Shown piece after piece: positions 53,934-60,421 of a stretch of 64,000 bases of DNA (positions are counted from its first letter, which is position 1; each line of letters starts with the position of its first letter). Origin of the DNA: Kocuria rhizophila DC2201. Lineage in GTDB: Bacteria; Actinomycetota; Actinomycetes; Actinomycetales; Micrococcaceae. A program made the translations under genes and the position numbers. Below the pieces are notes generated by a model. The model was given only the letters and a program-made list of their open reading frames with translations. It was not told the origin of the DNA and ran no database searches. The stretch covers positions 1,674,001 to 1,738,000 of the forward strand of contig NC_010617.1 in assembly GCF_000010285.1 (NCBI RefSeq), written 5' to 3'.

Positions 53934-55853
53934 TCAGCGCTTGGGCGCGAGCACCGCGTGCAGGGCCTCCAGCACCGAGTGGTCCTCGATGGTGGAGGGC
54001 ACCGTGTACTGCTCGCCGTCGGCCATCTGGCGCATGGTCTTGCGCAGGATCTTGCCCGAGCGCGTCTTGGGCAGGGCGTCCACCACGGCCACGTCCTTGA
54101 AGTCCGCCACCGGGCCGATCTGCGAGCGCACCATGGTCACGAGGTCCTCGGCCAGCTGCTCCTGGGTGATCTCCGCACCGGTCTTGAGCACCACGTACCC
54201 GGAGGGCCGCTGCCCCTTGAGGGGGTCGTTGACGCCGATCACCGCGCACTCGGCCACGTCGGGGTGGGTGGCGACGATCTGCTCCATCTGCCCCGTGGAC
54301 AGCCGGTGCCCGGAGACGTTGATGACGTCGTCGGTGCGGCCCATCACGAACACGTAGCCGTTCTCGTCGATGTACCCGGAGTCCCCCGTGGCGTAGTAGC
54401 CCGGGAACGCGGAGAGGTAGGAGGAGACGAAGCGCTCGTCTTTGCCCCACAGGGTGCTGAGCGTGCCGGGAGGCAAGGGCAGGCGCACCGCGATGTTGCC
54501 CTCCTCGCCCGGACCCAGCGGCTCCCCCAGCGGGTCGAGGATCTCCACGTGGAAACCGGGCACGGGCACCGTGGGGGACCCCGCCACGATGGGCAGCTTC
54601 TCGATCCCGAACGGGTTGGCGCAGATGGCCCAGCCGGTCTCGGTCTGCCACCAGTGGTCCACCACGGGTACATCCAGCACCGTGGAGGCCCACCTGTAGG
54701 TCTCGGGGTCCAGCCGCTCCCCCGCCACGAACAGTGCCTGCAGGGACGAGATGTCGTGCTGCTTCACGAAGTCCCCCTCGGGATCCGCCTTGCGGATCGC
54801 CCGCAGTGCGGTGGGAGCCGTGAACAGCACCTTGACCCCGTGCTCCTCGACGCGCTGCCAGAACGCACCGGCGTCCGGGGTGCCCACGGGCTTGCCCTCG
54901 TAGACCACCGTGGTGGCGCCCGCCAGCAGGGGTGCGTAGACGATGTAGGAGTGGCCCACCACCCAGCCGACGTCCGAGGCGGTCCACATCACGTCCCCGG
55001 CGGAGACGTCGTAGATGTTGACCATGGACCAGCTCAGAGCCACCGCGTGGCCGCCGTTGTCTCGGACCACGCCCTTGGGCTTGCCCGTGGTTCCGGACGT
55101 GTAGAGGATGTACAGCGGATCGGTGGCCGCCACGGTCACCGGCTCGGCCGGCGCCACGCCGTCCTGCGCCTCGCTCCACGACAGCCACGCCGGCCCGCCC
55201 GCTTCCTGCGAGCGCTCCCGGGCCTCGGCCACCGTGGTGGTGAAGCCGTCCCGCTCGTGGACCAGCACCGCCGACGGCGCGTGCTCACTGATCTGCAGGG
55301 CCTCTTCGATCGCGGGCAGGTACTCGATGCGCCGCTTGGGCTCCACCCCGCCGGAGGCCGTCACGATGGCCACGGGTCGGGAGTCGTCGATGCGGCTGGC
55401 CAGCTCGCGGGGCGCGAACCCTCCGAAGACCACGGAGTGCACAGCGCCCAACCGGGCGCACGCCAGCATGGCAATGACCGACTCGGCGATCATGGGCATG
55501 TAGAGCAGCACGCGGTCACCCTTGGTGACGCCCTGCGCTGCGAGCGCGCCGGCGAAGAGGGCGACCTTCTCCTGCAACTGCGCGTACGTGATGTGCTCCT
55601 GGACCCCGAGCACGGCGGAGTCGTAGATCAGGGCCGTGCGGTCCCCGTGGCCCGCGGCCACGTGGCGGTCCACGGCGTTGACGCACGTGTTCAGCTCGCC
55701 GTCCGGGAACCAGCGGTAGAGGGGTGCGGCGGAGTCGTCCAGGGCACGGGTGGGCGGGGTCACCCACTGCACGGCGTCGGCGGCGTCCAACCAGAAGCGC
55801 TCGGGGTCCTCCACGCTCGCGCGGTAGACGGATTCGTACGTGGGCTGCGGCAT
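53934..55853 (-). CDS. prpE: Propionyl-CoA synthetase (PrpE type)
   Basis: Activates propionate, and perhaps acetate, to acyl-CoA through an adenylate. The 639-residue protein has the AMP loop YTSGTTGKPKG (about 247-257) followed by the VVRDNGGHAVAL sequence usual in PrpE, the WWQTETGW acyl-pocket block, GDSGYIDENG and the C-terminal RSGKILRK lysine that acetylation can control. PrpE is favoured over acetyl-CoA synthetase because of that block and the divergent prp operon. Promoter TTGCCG/TAGAGT lies about 40-70 bp upstream. Confidence 0.9.
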   Translation of the reverse strand: MPQPTYESVYRASVEDPERFWLDAADAVQWVTPPTRALDDSAAPLYRWFPDGELNTCVNAVDRHVAAGHGDRTALIYDSAVLGVQEHITYAQLQEKVALFAGALAAQGVTKGDRVLLYMPMIAESVIAMLACARLGAVHSVVFGGFAPRELASRIDDSRPVAIVTASGGVEPKRRIEYLPAIEEALQISEHAPSAVLVHERDGFTTTVAEARERSQEAGGPAWLSWSEAQDGVAPAEPVTVAATDPLYILYTSGTTGKPKGVVRDNGGHAVALSWSMVNIYDVSAGDVMWTASDVGWVVGHSYIVYAPLLAGATTVVYEGKPVGTPDAGAFWQRVEEHGVKVLFTAPTALRAIRKADPEGDFVKQHDISSLQALFVAGERLDPETYRWASTVLDVPVVDHWWQTETGWAICANPFGIEKLPIVAGSPTVPVPGFHVEILDPLGEPLGPGEEGNIAVRLPLPPGTLSTLWGKDERFVSSYLSAFPGYYATGDSGYIDENGYVFVMGRTDDVINVSGHRLSTGQMEQIVATHPDVAECAVIGVNDPLKGQRPSGYVVLKTGAEITQEQLAEDLVTMVRSQIGPVADFKDVAVVDALPKTRSGKILRKTMRQMADGEQYTVPSTIEDHSVLEALHAVLAPKR

Positions 55854-55898: not shown

Positions 55899-55927
55899 AC
55901 TCTAGTGTCGCGAGTCACACGCGGCAA
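55899..55927 (-). promoter_or_regulatory. Promoter of prpE
   Basis: Minus-strand -35 TTGCCG (55927-55922), a 17-bp spacer and -10 TAGAGT (55904-55899). Expected start near 55892, leaving a leader of about 38 bases. The left operator (55934-55941) sits directly upstream of the -35. Confidence 0.65.
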
Positions 55928-55933
55928 GGGTTT

Positions 55934-55941
55934 TGTATACA
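55934..55941. promoter_or_regulatory. GntR-type operator, left copy
   Basis: TGTATACA, a perfect palindrome of the kind bound by FCD-type GntR regulators. It lies just upstream of the prpE -35 element and 63 bp, centre to centre, from the second copy. Confidence 0.65.
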
Positions 55942-55945
55942 CAAG

Positions 55946-55965
55946 GCATCCCGATTCCGGGATGC
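55946..55965. repeat. Inverted repeat between the two operators
   Basis: GCATCCCG (55946-55953) and CGGGATGC (55958-55965) are perfect 8-bp arms around ATTC. It may be a binding site for a second regulator or a structural element in the 63-bp spacer. Confidence 0.55.
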
Positions 55966-55977
55966 AGCCCAAAACAG

Positions 55978-56006
55978 TTGGCCTCAACCTGCCGGGTGTA
56001 TACACT
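55978..56006 (+). promoter_or_regulatory. Promoter of gntR-prpDBC
   Basis: -35 TTGGCC (55978-55983), a 17-bp spacer and -10 TACACT (56001-56006). Expected start near 56013, about 22 bases before the ATG. The right operator covers the -10, so the regulator should repress it. Confidence 0.65.
55996..56005. promoter_or_regulatory. GntR-type operator, right copy
   Basis: GTGTATACAC, a perfect 10-bp palindrome containing the same TGTATACA core as the left copy. It overlaps the -10 element of the gntR-prpDBC promoter. Confidence 0.7.
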
Positions 56007-56034: not shown

Positions 56035-56694
56035 ATGCGAGCTGGTGAGCGCGCCTACCGCGAGCTGCGCGCGGACATCGTGTCCTGGCGTCTGGTCCCC
56101 GGCCAGGTGCTCGGGGAGGTGGACCTCTCCGAGCGGCTCGGAATCTCGCGCACCCCGGTGCGCGAGGCCCTGTCCCGGCTCACCGCGGACGGGCTGACCG
56201 AACCGCACAACGGCCGCGGCGTCGTCGTCAGCGCGATCTCCTCAGAGGACGTCCGCGCGCTGTACGAGCTGCGGGACACCCTGGACTGCCGGGCCGCCGA
56301 GCTGGCGGCCGTGCGCGGGGACGCGCAGACGTTCCGCGAGCTCGCGGAGCAGCTCTCCCACGCCGCGGAGACGCTCTCCGACGATCCCGACCACGCCGCG
56401 TACTACGCCCTCGTGGACCGGATGGACGCGGAGATCGACGCCGCCGCGGGCAACCCCTACCTGCAGCAGGCGCTGTCGAACGTGCGGCTGCACCTCGCCC
56501 GCGTGCGCAGGCTCTCCACGTCCAACCCGCGGCGCCTGGCCGTGGCCGCCGCGGAGCACGAGGCGATCGCCCGCGCGATCGCCGAGGGCGAGCCCGCCCT
56601 GGCCGTGGCCACCACTCGGGTGCACCTGAAGAACGCGCTCGGCAACGCCCTGCGCACCCCCGCACTCGCCCCGGCACCGCCGGTGGCCTCCTGA
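56035..56694 (+). CDS. GntR-family (FCD) regulator of the propionate genes
   Basis: A 219-residue GntR regulator. The winged helix (about residues 5-70) includes [23 protein letters not shown], and the C-terminal all-helical FCD domain (about 77-210) has the metal/ligand histidines in [11 protein letters not shown] and the final [13 protein letters not shown] segment. AGGAGG stands four bases before the ATG. It is the first gene of the prpDBC operon and divergent from prpE; two TGTATACA sites flank its promoter. 2-Methylcitrate or a propionyl-CoA derivative is the likely signal, by inference from context. Confidence 0.92.
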
Positions 56695-56752: not shown

Positions 56753-58285
56753 GTGACCGTCACACACACCGTGCGCACGTACTCGTCCAAGGAGGAGCTG
56801 CCCCGTGAGGAGCAGCTCGCCCACAAGCTCGCCTCCGTGGCCACCGATCCCGTGGCCGTGGAGCCCGAGGTGGTGGACATGGTGGTCAACCGGATCATCG
56901 ACAACGCCTCCGTCGCCATCGCGTCCCTGAACCGCGGGCCGATCGTCTCCGCCCGCTCCCAGGCGCTGTGCCACAAGGTGGCACCCGGGGCCGGCTTCTC
57001 CGGCCAGGGCTCCCTGCTCTACGGCGCCCCGGAGGACGACGCCGCCGTGTCCCCCGAGTGGGCCGCGTGGGCCAACGGGGTGGCCGTGCGCGAGCTGGAC
57101 TACCACGACACCTTCCTCTCCGCCGAGTACTCCCACCCCGGTGACAACATCCCGCCGATCCTGGCCGTGGCCCAGCACGTGGGCAGCACCGGCGAGGACC
57201 TGATTCGGGGCATCGCCACCGGCTACGAGGTCCAGGTGGACCTCGTGAAGGGCATCTGCCTCCACGAGCACAAGATCGACCACATCGCGCACATCGGTCC
57301 GTCCGCCTCCGCGGGCATCGGGACCCTGCTGGGTCTGGACACCGAGACGATCTTCCAGGCCATCGGCCAGGCGCTGCACACCACCACGCAGACCCGCCAG
57401 TCCCGCAAGGGCGAGATCTCCACGTGGAAGGCCCACGCCCCCGCGTTCGCCGGGAAGATGGCCGTGGAGGCCGTGGACCGTGCGATGCGCGGACAGACCT
57501 CCCCCACCCCCATCTACGAGGGCGAGGACGGCGTGATCGCGTGGCTGCTGTCCGGTCCGAAGGCCAGCTACGAGGTGCCCCTGCCCGCCCCGGGCGAGGC
57601 CAAGCGCGCCATCCTGGACACCTACACCAAGGAGCACTCCGCGGAGTACCAGGCGCAGGCGTGGATCGACCTCGCCCGCAAGCTGCACCGCGAGCACCCC
57701 GAGGTCACGGACCCCGCCAACGTGGAGTCGGTGCTCATCAAGACCTCCCACCACACCCACTACGTGATCGGCTCCGGGGCCAACGACCCCCAGAAGTACG
57801 ATCCCACCGCCTCGCGCGAGACCCTGGACCACTCGATCCCCTACATCTTCACGGTCGCCCTGCAGGACGGCGCATGGCACCACGTGGACTCCTACGCGCC
57901 GGAGCGCGCCGGCCGCCCGGACACCGTGGAGCTGTGGCACAAGGTCACCACGGAGGAGGATCCCGAGTGGACCCGCCGCTACCACTCCCTGGACATCTCC
58001 GAAAAGGCGTTCGGCGGCTCCGTGGTGATCACCATGAAGGACGGCACCGTGATCACGGACGAGATCGCCGTCGCGGACGCCCACCCACTCGGGGCCCGGC
58101 CGTTCGCCCGCGAGCAGTACATCACCAAGTTCCGCACCCTGGCCGAGGGCCTGGTGGCTCCCGAGGAGATCGAGCGCTTCCTGGACGCCGTCCAGCGCCT
58201 GCCCGAGCTCAAGGCCGGGGAGCTCGGCCAGCTCAACATCGCCGCGGCCGTGGGCCTGGAGAAGTCGCCGAAGGGAATCTTCTGA
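56753..58285 (+). CDS. prpD: 2-methylcitrate dehydratase
   Basis: PrpD dehydrates 2-methylcitrate to 2-methyl-cis-aconitate. The 510-residue protein belongs to the MmgE/PrpD family: [12 protein letters not shown] near residue 52, the active-site block [30 protein letters not shown] and the [15 protein letters not shown] segment. Length is as expected. The GTG has AAAGGA about six bases before it. It lies 58 bp after the GntR gene and 2 bp before prpB. An aconitase for the next step is not in this window. Confidence 0.95.
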
Positions 58286-58287
58286 TC

Positions 58288-59199
58288 ATGCTGTACACCA
58301 CCGTGACCCCCGCTCAGAAGCGCGAGCGCTTCCGCGAGCTGCTGGCCGCGCCGGAGATCGCCCAGTTCCCGGGCGCGTTCACCCCGCTGTCCACCAAGCT
58401 CATCCAGGAGCAGGACTTCGAGGGCGTCTACATCTCCGGCGGCGTGCTGGCCAACGAGCTCGGGCTGCCGGACATCGGGCTGACCACGCTCACCGAGGTG
58501 GCCACCCGCGCCGGGCAGATCGCCCGCAGCACCGACCTGCCGTGCCTCGTGGACGCCGACACCGGCTTCGGTGAGCCCATGAACGTGGCGCGCACCGTGC
58601 AGGAGCTCGAGGACGCCGGGCTGGCCGGTTGCCACATCGAGGACCAGTTCAACCCCAAGCGCTGCGGCCACCTGGACGGCAAGAACGTGGTGGACACCGC
58701 CACCGCCGTCAAGCGCATCCGCGCCGCCGTGGAGGCCCGGCGGGACCCGAACTTCGTGGTGATGGCCCGCACCGACATCCGCGGCGTGGACGGGTTCGAC
58801 GCCGCCGTGGAGCGCGCCCGTGCCCTGGCGGACGCCGGCGCGGACGTCATCTTCCCCGAGGCCATGGCGGAGCTCTCCGAGTTCGAGCGCATGGCTGAGG
58901 CCCTGGACGTCCCGATCCTCGCCAACATGACCGAGTTCGGGAAGTCCGAGCTGTTCACCCGGCAGCAGCTGCAGGACGCGGGGGTGTCCATGATCATCTA
59001 CCCCGTGTCCCTGGAGCGCCAGGCCATGGGCGCCATCGAGCGGCTGCTCACCACCATCCGTGAGGACGGCACACAGCAGACCCAGGTGGAGAACATGCTC
59101 ACCCGCAAGCGACTCTACGAGCTGGTGGACTACACGTCCTACAACCAGTTCGACTCCGGGGTCTTCAACTTCGAGGTGCCGGGCACCCCGAACAGCTGA
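58288..59199 (+). CDS. prpB: 2-methylisocitrate lyase
   Basis: PrpB splits 2-methylisocitrate into pyruvate and succinate. The 303-residue protein has ISGGVLANELGLPDIGL near residue 50, DADTGFGEP, HIEDQFNPKRCGHLDGK with the catalytic cysteine of the K-[KR]-CGH motif, and MARTDIRGV. The PrpB-specific form of the motif separates it from isocitrate lyase. The ATG is 2 bp after the prpD stop, so the two are cotranscribed. Confidence 0.96.
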   Translation: MLYTTVTPAQKRERFRELLAAPEIAQFPGAFTPLSTKLIQEQDFEGVYISGGVLANELGLPDIGLTTLTEVATRAGQIARSTDLPCLVDADTGFGEPMNVARTVQELEDAGLAGCHIEDQFNPKRCGHLDGKNVVDTATAVKRIRAAVEARRDPNFVVMARTDIRGVDGFDAAVERARALADAGADVIFPEAMAELSEFERMAEALDVPILANMTEFGKSELFTRQQLQDAGVSMIIYPVSLERQAMGAIERLLTTIREDGTQQTQVENMLTRKRLYELVDYTSYNQFDSGVFNFEVPGTPNS

Positions 59200-59281: not shown

Positions 59282-60421
59282 GTGGCAGACACCGAAATCC
59301 GCAAGGGACTCGCCGGAGTGGTGGCCGACACCACCGCCGTGTCCAAGGTCAACGCCGAGACCAACTCCCTGCTCTACCGGGGCTACCCGGTGCAGGAGCT
59401 CGCCGAGAAGTGCTCCGCCGAGGAAGTGGCGCTGCTGCTGTGGACGGGTGAGCTGCCCTCCGAGGAGGAGCTCGAGGCCTTCCGCACCCTCGAGCGCGAG
59501 AACCGGGCGCTGACGCCCGAGCTCAAGCGCGTGATCGACGAGCTGCCCACCACGTGCCACCCCATGGACGTGTGCCGCACCGCGGCGTCCGTGATCGGCG
59601 CGCAGCACCCCCTCGCGGAGGACAACTCCCCCGAGGCCGAGCTGCGCAAGGCCCAGGAGCTCTTCGCCGTGATGCCGGCCGTGGTCTGCTACGACCAGCG
59701 CCGCCGCCACGGCCAGGAGCTCGTAGAGCCCCGCGAGGACCTCGACTACGCCCAGAACTTCCTGTGGATGGCGTTCGGCGAGGAGGCCGCCCCCGAGGTG
59801 GTCGACGCGTTCCGCGTGTCGATCATCCTGTACGCGGAGCACTCCTTCAACGCCTCCACGTTCACGGCCCGCGTGATCACCTCCACCCTCTCGGACCTGC
59901 ACTCCGCGGTCACCGGTGCCATCGGCGCCCTCAAGGGTCCGCTGCACGGCGGCGCCAACGAGGCCGTGATGCACACCTTCGAGGAGCTCGGGATCCGCAA
60001 GGAGGAGACCGCCGAGGAGGCCGAGAAGCGCGCCAAGGAGTGGATGGACCGGGCGCTCGCGGAGAAGAAGAAGGTCATGGGCTTCGGCCACCGCGTGTAC
60101 AAGCACGGCGACTCCCGAGTGCCCACCATGCAGGAGGCGCTGTTCCGCATGCTGGACCACTACGACCGCCAGGAGATCCTGGGGCTGTACAACGGGCTGG
60201 CCAAGTCCATGGACGAGGCCAAGTCCATCAAGCCCAACCTGGACTACCCCGCCGGGCCCACGTACTGGCTCATGGGTTTCGACATCCCCACGTTCACGCC
60301 CATCTTCGTGTGCGCCCGCATCACCGGCTGGACCGCGCACATCATGGAGCAGCGCGCAAACAACTCGCTGATCCGCCCGCTCTCGGACTACAGCGGTCCG
60401 GACGAGCGTCACCTGTCCTGA
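59282..60421 (+). CDS. prpC: 2-methylcitrate synthase
   Basis: PrpC condenses propionyl-CoA with oxaloacetate to 2-methylcitrate. The 379-residue protein is a short type I citrate synthase form, with GPLHGGANE (first active-site histidine), GFGHRVYKHGDSR (second histidine and substrate arginine) and the IMEQRANNSLIRP C-terminal block. Length and operon context favour methylcitrate synthase over the longer type II citrate synthase; some side activity with acetyl-CoA is usual. GTG start with AAGGAG about seven bases upstream. Confidence 0.94.
   Translation: MADTEIRKGLAGVVADTTAVSKVNAETNSLLYRGYPVQELAEKCSAEEVALLLWTGELPSEEELEAFRTLERENRALTPELKRVIDELPTTCHPMDVCRTAASVIGAQHPLAEDNSPEAELRKAQELFAVMPAVVCYDQRRRHGQELVEPREDLDYAQNFLWMAFGEEAAPEVVDAFRVSIILYAEHSFNASTFTARVITSTLSDLHSAVTGAIGALKGPLHGGANEAVMHTFEELGIRKEETAEEAEKRAKEWMDRALAEKKKVMGFGHRVYKHGDSRVPTMQEALFRMLDHYDRQEILGLYNGLAKSMDEAKSIKPNLDYPAGPTYWLMGFDIPTFTPIFVCARITGWTAHIMEQRANNSLIRPLSDYSGPDERHLS

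Follow-up and report, generated by a model that had tools for sequence, protein, structure and literature searches.

The window, by which we mean the whole 64,000-nucleotide stretch of DNA that was analyzed, from Kocuria rhizophila DC2201, a bacterium of soil and skin, contains a prp locus in which gntR (56035 to 56694, + strand), encoding a 219-aa GntR/FCD regulator with a predicted six-helix (VanR-group) effector domain, is followed by prpD (2-methylcitrate dehydratase of the high-GC Gram-positive type, 56753 to 58285, + strand), prpB (methylisocitrate lyase, 58288 to 59199, + strand), and prpC (2-methylcitrate/citrate synthase, 59282 to 60421, + strand), with prpE (propionate-CoA ligase, AMP-binding and PrpE-like, 53934 to 55853, − strand) lying divergently. 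The gene names gntR, prpE, prpD, prpB, and prpC given in an earlier note on this DNA held, as the GntR plus FCD, PrpE-like, PrpD, PrpB, and 2-methylcitrate synthase families were found; prpB and prpC scored above the cut-off, and prpE and prpD below the NCBI equivalog cut-off. In nearly all of the 142 Micrococcaceae loci described below prpD directly follows gntR, and the linkage of gntR to prp genes is that seen for GntR-type regulators of the 2-methylcitrate cycle such as PmiR, which we take to be PA0797, the protein called PrpR.

Two copies of the palindrome TGTATACA, which we call the distal (55934 to 55941) and proximal (55997 to 56004) operators, lie exactly 63 bp apart, as the earlier note had claimed; they are the only copies in the whole window (0.01 expected in shuffles), and the 2,697,540-bp genome holds only one further copy elsewhere. 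The proposal of good −35/−10 hexamers with 17-bp spacers was borne out for both promoters: gntR-prpDBC has TTGGCC (55978 to 55983, + strand) and TACACT, of the TANNNT type (56001 to 56006, + strand), and prpE has TTGCCG (55922 to 55927, − strand) and TAGAGT (55899 to 55904, − strand). Both operator placements could also be read from the sequence, the proximal operator overlapping the gntR −10 and the distal one lying beside prpE with its center 10 to 15 bp upstream of the −35. The T at core+8 of the proximal operator, which is the last base of the TACACT −10, is 93% conserved in the family loci. Over the prpE promoter there is a CRP/GlxR-like site (55904 to 55919) with an 8/10 match to TGTGAN6TCACA. 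The extra inverted repeat that had been noted between the operators is present as a GC-rich element, GCATCCCG-N4-CGGGATGC, at 55946 to 55965, but seven other Kocuria spacers that were checked had no comparable repeat, and because it is not conserved we dropped it as a functional element.

Among 149 Micrococcaceae genomes, a protein search located 142 gntR-prp loci, in each of which two sites were scored with one-mismatch partners allowed. The earlier note had looked to close relatives for conservation of the paired sites and to related prp loci for the same spacing; paired sites were found, and their phasing kept, in 142/142 loci, and the spacing shifted between loci in whole helical turns. 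Center-to-center spacings fell at 51 to 53 bp (n = 17), 62 to 64 bp (n = 92), 72 to 76 bp (n = 22), 83 to 86 bp (n = 5), and 97 to 98 bp (n = 3), the longest being 147, 157, and 159 bp in one locus each. No spacing fell between clusters, the clusters were separated by steps of about 10.5 bp, and 96% of loci were within 1.5 bp of a multiple of 10.5 bp, relative to 32% expected for random integers. These observations strongly support same-face binding and DNA looping, which had been proposed from the window's single pair. When 395 family genomes were searched by pattern, 344 had such a pair, and only a handful matched the reversed pattern. When one operator was imperfect (TGCATACA and others), its partner still lay at 52, 63, or 74 bp, and degenerate operators (TGCATACA, TGTATGCA, and similar) were on phase in loci L071, L098, L105, L106, and L168. 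The automatic table also listed spacings of 15, 22, 47, and 56 bp; on inspection by eye these came from chance one-mismatch matches next to a normal pair, and they were corrected.

As the relatedness of the loci was our main worry, we counted changes of spacing class and obtained at least 17 inside genera and 28 on a GntR tree. With strict scoring, 12 of the 17 within-genus changes deviated from a whole turn by no more than 1.5 bp (binomial p 0.0013); those that deviated further were 76 and 86 bp, which are off by about 2 bp, and 97, 97, and 98 bp, which are off by about 3 bp. A helical period fitted from all spacings gave a best value of 11.7 and was rejected as unstable, because 63 bp dominates; therefore, we used whole-turn deviations, within-genus changes, and one-per-genus tests. 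Two such sites also occur in Microbacteriaceae, Demequina, Cellulomonas relatives, and others, with a usual spacing of 52 bp and mostly without prpE. An exact two-site search across the order returned few pairs outside Micrococcaceae, because one site is often imperfect there, whereas the protein-led search did find them; L235, from Subtercola, had one site only.

The DNA between the operators (55942 to 55996 in the window), which would form the putative loop, is not conserved in sequence; there was no evident similarity even among Kocuria spacers, and no conserved motif between the operators was found in the family loci. It belongs, however, to a family of spacers in which A/T and G/C alternate every 10.5 bp or so. 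In the 63-bp class the A/T content oscillated from about 0.8 down to 0.12, the oscillation did not differ in phase among the 52-, 63-, and 74-bp classes, and its amplitude was 6 to 16 times the shuffled mean. When spacers were folded on helical phase, WW steps ranged from about 0.06 to 0.5 and SS steps from about 0.55 to 0.1. In 135/136 loci and 31/31 genera the A/T peak was displaced by half a turn relative to the operator dyads. The signal was absent downstream of the pair, five-fold weaker but still above shuffles upstream of it, and, for the longest spacings, clear only near the distal site. It was replicated in 35 loci outside Micrococcaceae (per-locus phase R 0.84 and 0.95), was present in 30/30 further genomes of genus g9, and gave a rotational phase R of 0.87 (p about 5e-11) in the one-per-genus set. 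The window's own spacer agreed in phase (6.1), although as a single spacer it was not significant (p 0.17). Atu1419 of Agrobacterium fabrum reads its palindrome through the major groove, which it contacts no more than about 3 bp from the dyad (PMC7797058). If GntR contacts the dyad as Atu1419 does, the major groove at each dyad would face the protein, as would the A/T minor grooves half a turn away, with the G/C minor grooves pointing outward; DNA in a nucleosome, which bends toward its protein, is arranged in this way.

Downstream of the third TGTATACA copy in the genome come a DUF485 gene and then one for a sodium:solute symporter, a gene order typical of acetate/propionate uptake. At this symporter promoter a pair, TGTATACA plus TGGATACA or TGCATACA, was found in 20/27 Kocuria genomes, spaced at 83 to 84 bp (4 genomes) or 94 to 96 bp (16 genomes), which correspond to eight and nine turns. 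The A/T phase inside this pair was 4.7 to 5.8, that is, half a turn, as at the prp locus. The symporter pair was not found in other genera, where one single site was seen, in L278.

The earlier note predicted co-control of the divergent promoters. This is not a general rule, since 43/142 family loci have no divergent prpE within 500 bp and nevertheless keep the phased pair; in L069, L149, and L160 a co-directional upstream reading frame extends to the operator. We concluded from the retention of the pair without divergent prpE that it primarily serves the gntR-prpDBC promoter, which is the constant element, prpE being an added client in some lineages. The CRP/GlxR-like site, at a match of at least 8/10, was found in 66/99 loci with prpE, in 4/43 without it, and in 1.2% of shuffles; its position over the prpE promoter and its rarity where prpE is absent suggest catabolite control of prpE. 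The gntR start codon follows the proximal core by 15 to 16 bp in about 70 family loci, which places TACACT at −12 to −7 of that codon and thus implies a leaderless mRNA. From these distances gntR appears to be translated from leaderless mRNA in about 70 Micrococcaceae loci, for example, L096, L141, and L160.

The regulator itself contains a GntR domain (PF00392, E 2.7e-17) and an FCD domain (PF07729, E 6.7e-21), both above gathering scores, and its AlphaFold2 monomer model (pLDDT 93.7) has six C-terminal helices at residues 70–94, 97–112, 121–138, 141–160, 165–183, and 187–206. Effector domains with six helices define the VanR group of FCD regulators and those with seven define the FadR group; by its predicted fold, GntR is a member of the VanR group of the FCD subfamily in the GntR superfamily. 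The nearest structures were Brucella 7u5q, Atu1419, and P. aeruginosa PmiR, with AlkR(VanR) also among the nearest. For the FCD metal site, which consists of an Asp and three His, D131, H175, and H197 were nearly invariant to invariant, and the usual D..FH His had no counterpart in the PmiR alignment.

A 14-residue recognition-helix stretch of GntR is identical to that of Atu1419, the first GntR tetramer to be described, which binds ATGTATACAT and loops two palindromes 190 bp apart (PMC7797058). The two systems are alike in that recognition-helix stretch, in the operator core ATGTATACAT, in the six-helix effector domain (predicted for GntR), and in having two palindromes in the regulator's own promoter region with one over a −10, as the two TGTATACA-type sites are here. 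The Atu1419 loop was seen by electron microscopy. The systems differ in that the distance between the Atu1419 sites is 190 bp, or 109 bp at a second target, its proposed effector is methylenetetrahydrofolate, its pathway is hydroxycinnamate degradation, and the passages of that source consulted report neither a spacing series nor a bending signal (PMC7797058). PmiR/PrpR (PA0797, PDB 7xp0/7xp1) is a GntR repressor of the P. aeruginosa prp operon that recognizes the motif ATTGTCGACAAT and is probably released by 2-methylcitrate (PMC9765439). Like GntR it is of the FCD type and encoded with prp genes, with 2-methylcitrate as proposed inducer and a GT-N2-AC palindrome; unlike the sites studied here, ATTGTCGACAAT has a CG center, and the passages of the source consulted describe one palindrome upstream of prpR and no loop (PMC9765439). 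The operator core at our locus is GTATAC rather than the GTCGAC of the PmiR/PrpR motif, so that a PmiR-type operator is absent.

We consider it probable that the GntR repressor bridges both phased operators, bends the DNA toward itself, and thereby represses gntR-prpDBC. In the mechanism we propose, the gntR product would be an autoregulating VanR-group FCD repressor, two dimers of which, most likely as a tetramer, would bind the two TGTATACA palindromes on the same helix face; alternatively worded, a GntR tetramer or two contacting dimers would span both operators. The 52 to 75 bp between the sites would curve toward the protein as a tight loop or wrap, the proximal dimer would cover the −10 of gntR-prpDBC and shut that promoter, and bridging to the distal site would raise local occupancy, giving steeper repression and a sharper switch. 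A methylcitrate-cycle tricarboxylate, 2-methylcitrate or 2-methylisocitrate, would presumably release the repressor; an architectural protein may assist, the 52-bp loop being very short. Retention of two operators at whole-turn spacing is as expected of a DNA-looping repressor, whereas the three loci at 97 to 98 bp, about 3 bp off phase, speak against this mechanism, as do the strict within-genus count of only 12 of 17 on phase, the restriction of a clear rotational signal to the neighborhood of the distal site in the longest spacings, the lack of significance of the window's spacer by itself, and a 52-bp loop, which is shorter than usual protein-mediated loops. We also lean toward the view that this metabolic repressor uses a nucleosome-like rotational code, with A/T minor grooves facing the protein, and that evolution has separated its operators by whole turns only (5, 6, 7, or 8, at times more).

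If each site instead independently repressed its own divergent promoter, the fixed distance between sites would simply reflect a fixed distance between promoters. Such an arrangement would suit the window, with one site on the gntR −10 and the other beside the prpE −35, and double sites are known in GntR divergons, separately acting ones being common among those of the FadR type (PMC4494728). However, the phased sites are both kept in the 43/142 family loci and in most non-Micrococcaceae loci without divergent prpE nearby, and independent sites would not shift their spacing only in whole turns or keep the rotational A/T-G/C signal. We therefore regard this reading as very improbable. It is decidedly unlikely that the distal operator is an activator site from which ligand-bound GntR contacts RNA polymerase from upstream on one face, the proximal operator being a separate repressor site. 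The distal center does lie about 52, 63, 74, or 84 bp upstream of the −10-covering proximal one, and for class I activators, too, the shifts tolerated are mainly whole turns; yet this arrangement would not lead one to expect bendable DNA all the way between the operators, equally phased at both, or distances of 147 to 159 bp, and phasing and the same rotational signal are also seen for the symporter pair.

The bend might also be made by HU, mIHF, Lsr2, or a CRP-family protein, proteins of a kind that Actinobacteria have, with GntR dimers that do not touch and phasing that serves a larger nucleoprotein complex. A CRP-like site does lie beside the distal operator in most prpE loci, and very short loops usually need help in bending, but the site is mostly missing without prpE (4/43) while phasing and rotational signal remain, and the operators have no conserved motif between them; we find this explanation unlikely. 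That the spacing is merely inherited, or a matter of chance, and the periodicity an artefact of related sequences draws on the relatedness of the loci, the dominance of 63 bp, and the poorly fixed period. Against this, Kocuria spacers have no evident common sequence, a minimum of 17 class changes occurred within genera, the one-per-genus phase was strongly concentrated, and both features recur at the unlinked symporter promoter. This reading is largely refuted by the one-per-genus test and by the second, unlinked pair, and its probability is close to negligible.

Bridging of both operators by GntR would place this locus beside the loops of LacI, AraR, and other repressors, in which two operators also lie on one helix face and repression depends on helical phase; phased A-tracts favor looping in built constructs (PMC3795714). 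Relative to the LacI and AraR loops, what is found here is a natural spacing series plus a bending signal across about two hundred loci, with the commonest predicted loops only 5 or 6 turns long. Wrapping regulators of the Lrp family similarly place dimers on one face at whole-turn spacing, with the DNA wrapped around the protein, but their sites are degenerate, hold dimers 2 to 3 turns apart, and have an A/T minor groove at the dyad (PMC2995911), whereas here two strong sites are 5 or more turns apart and the spacer A/T peaks lie half a turn from the dyads. In the literature searched, largely that outside the subscription journals, we found no natural series of whole-turn spacings that is coupled to a rotational bending code. 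Very short repressor loops (about 50 to 75 bp) in cells, and the evolutionary tuning of loop-DNA mechanics, have mostly been studied with built constructs; the roughly two hundred loci are a natural series of spacing and bendability around one orthologous regulator and could serve as a test bed for very short loop formation in living cells, with predictions for phase, loop length, bend direction, and strength. If our proposal is correct, these loci would amount to a series of the shortest repressor loops that nature has encoded in sequence, selected for DNA mechanics and not for sequence. The literature searched also gave no characterized propionate-use regulator for Kocuria, Arthrobacter, Micrococcus, Rothia, Microbacterium, or relatives, for which the present work offers a candidate regulator, operator, and regulon.

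Three minor observations came from individual assemblies. Different contigs of G365, of genus g9, carry several TGTATACA pairs with spacings near 52, 62, and 63 bp, and therefore other phased targets or paralogues exist. A contig labeled Vibrio cholerae (WNZI01000064.1, L192) carries an Arthrobacter-type gntR-prp locus and is probably a contaminated or mislabeled assembly. A different double element, TGTATACGTATACA...ACGTATACA, with a fixed spacing of about 51 bp, is present in the genus g9 genomes G009, G314, G352, G359, and G365.
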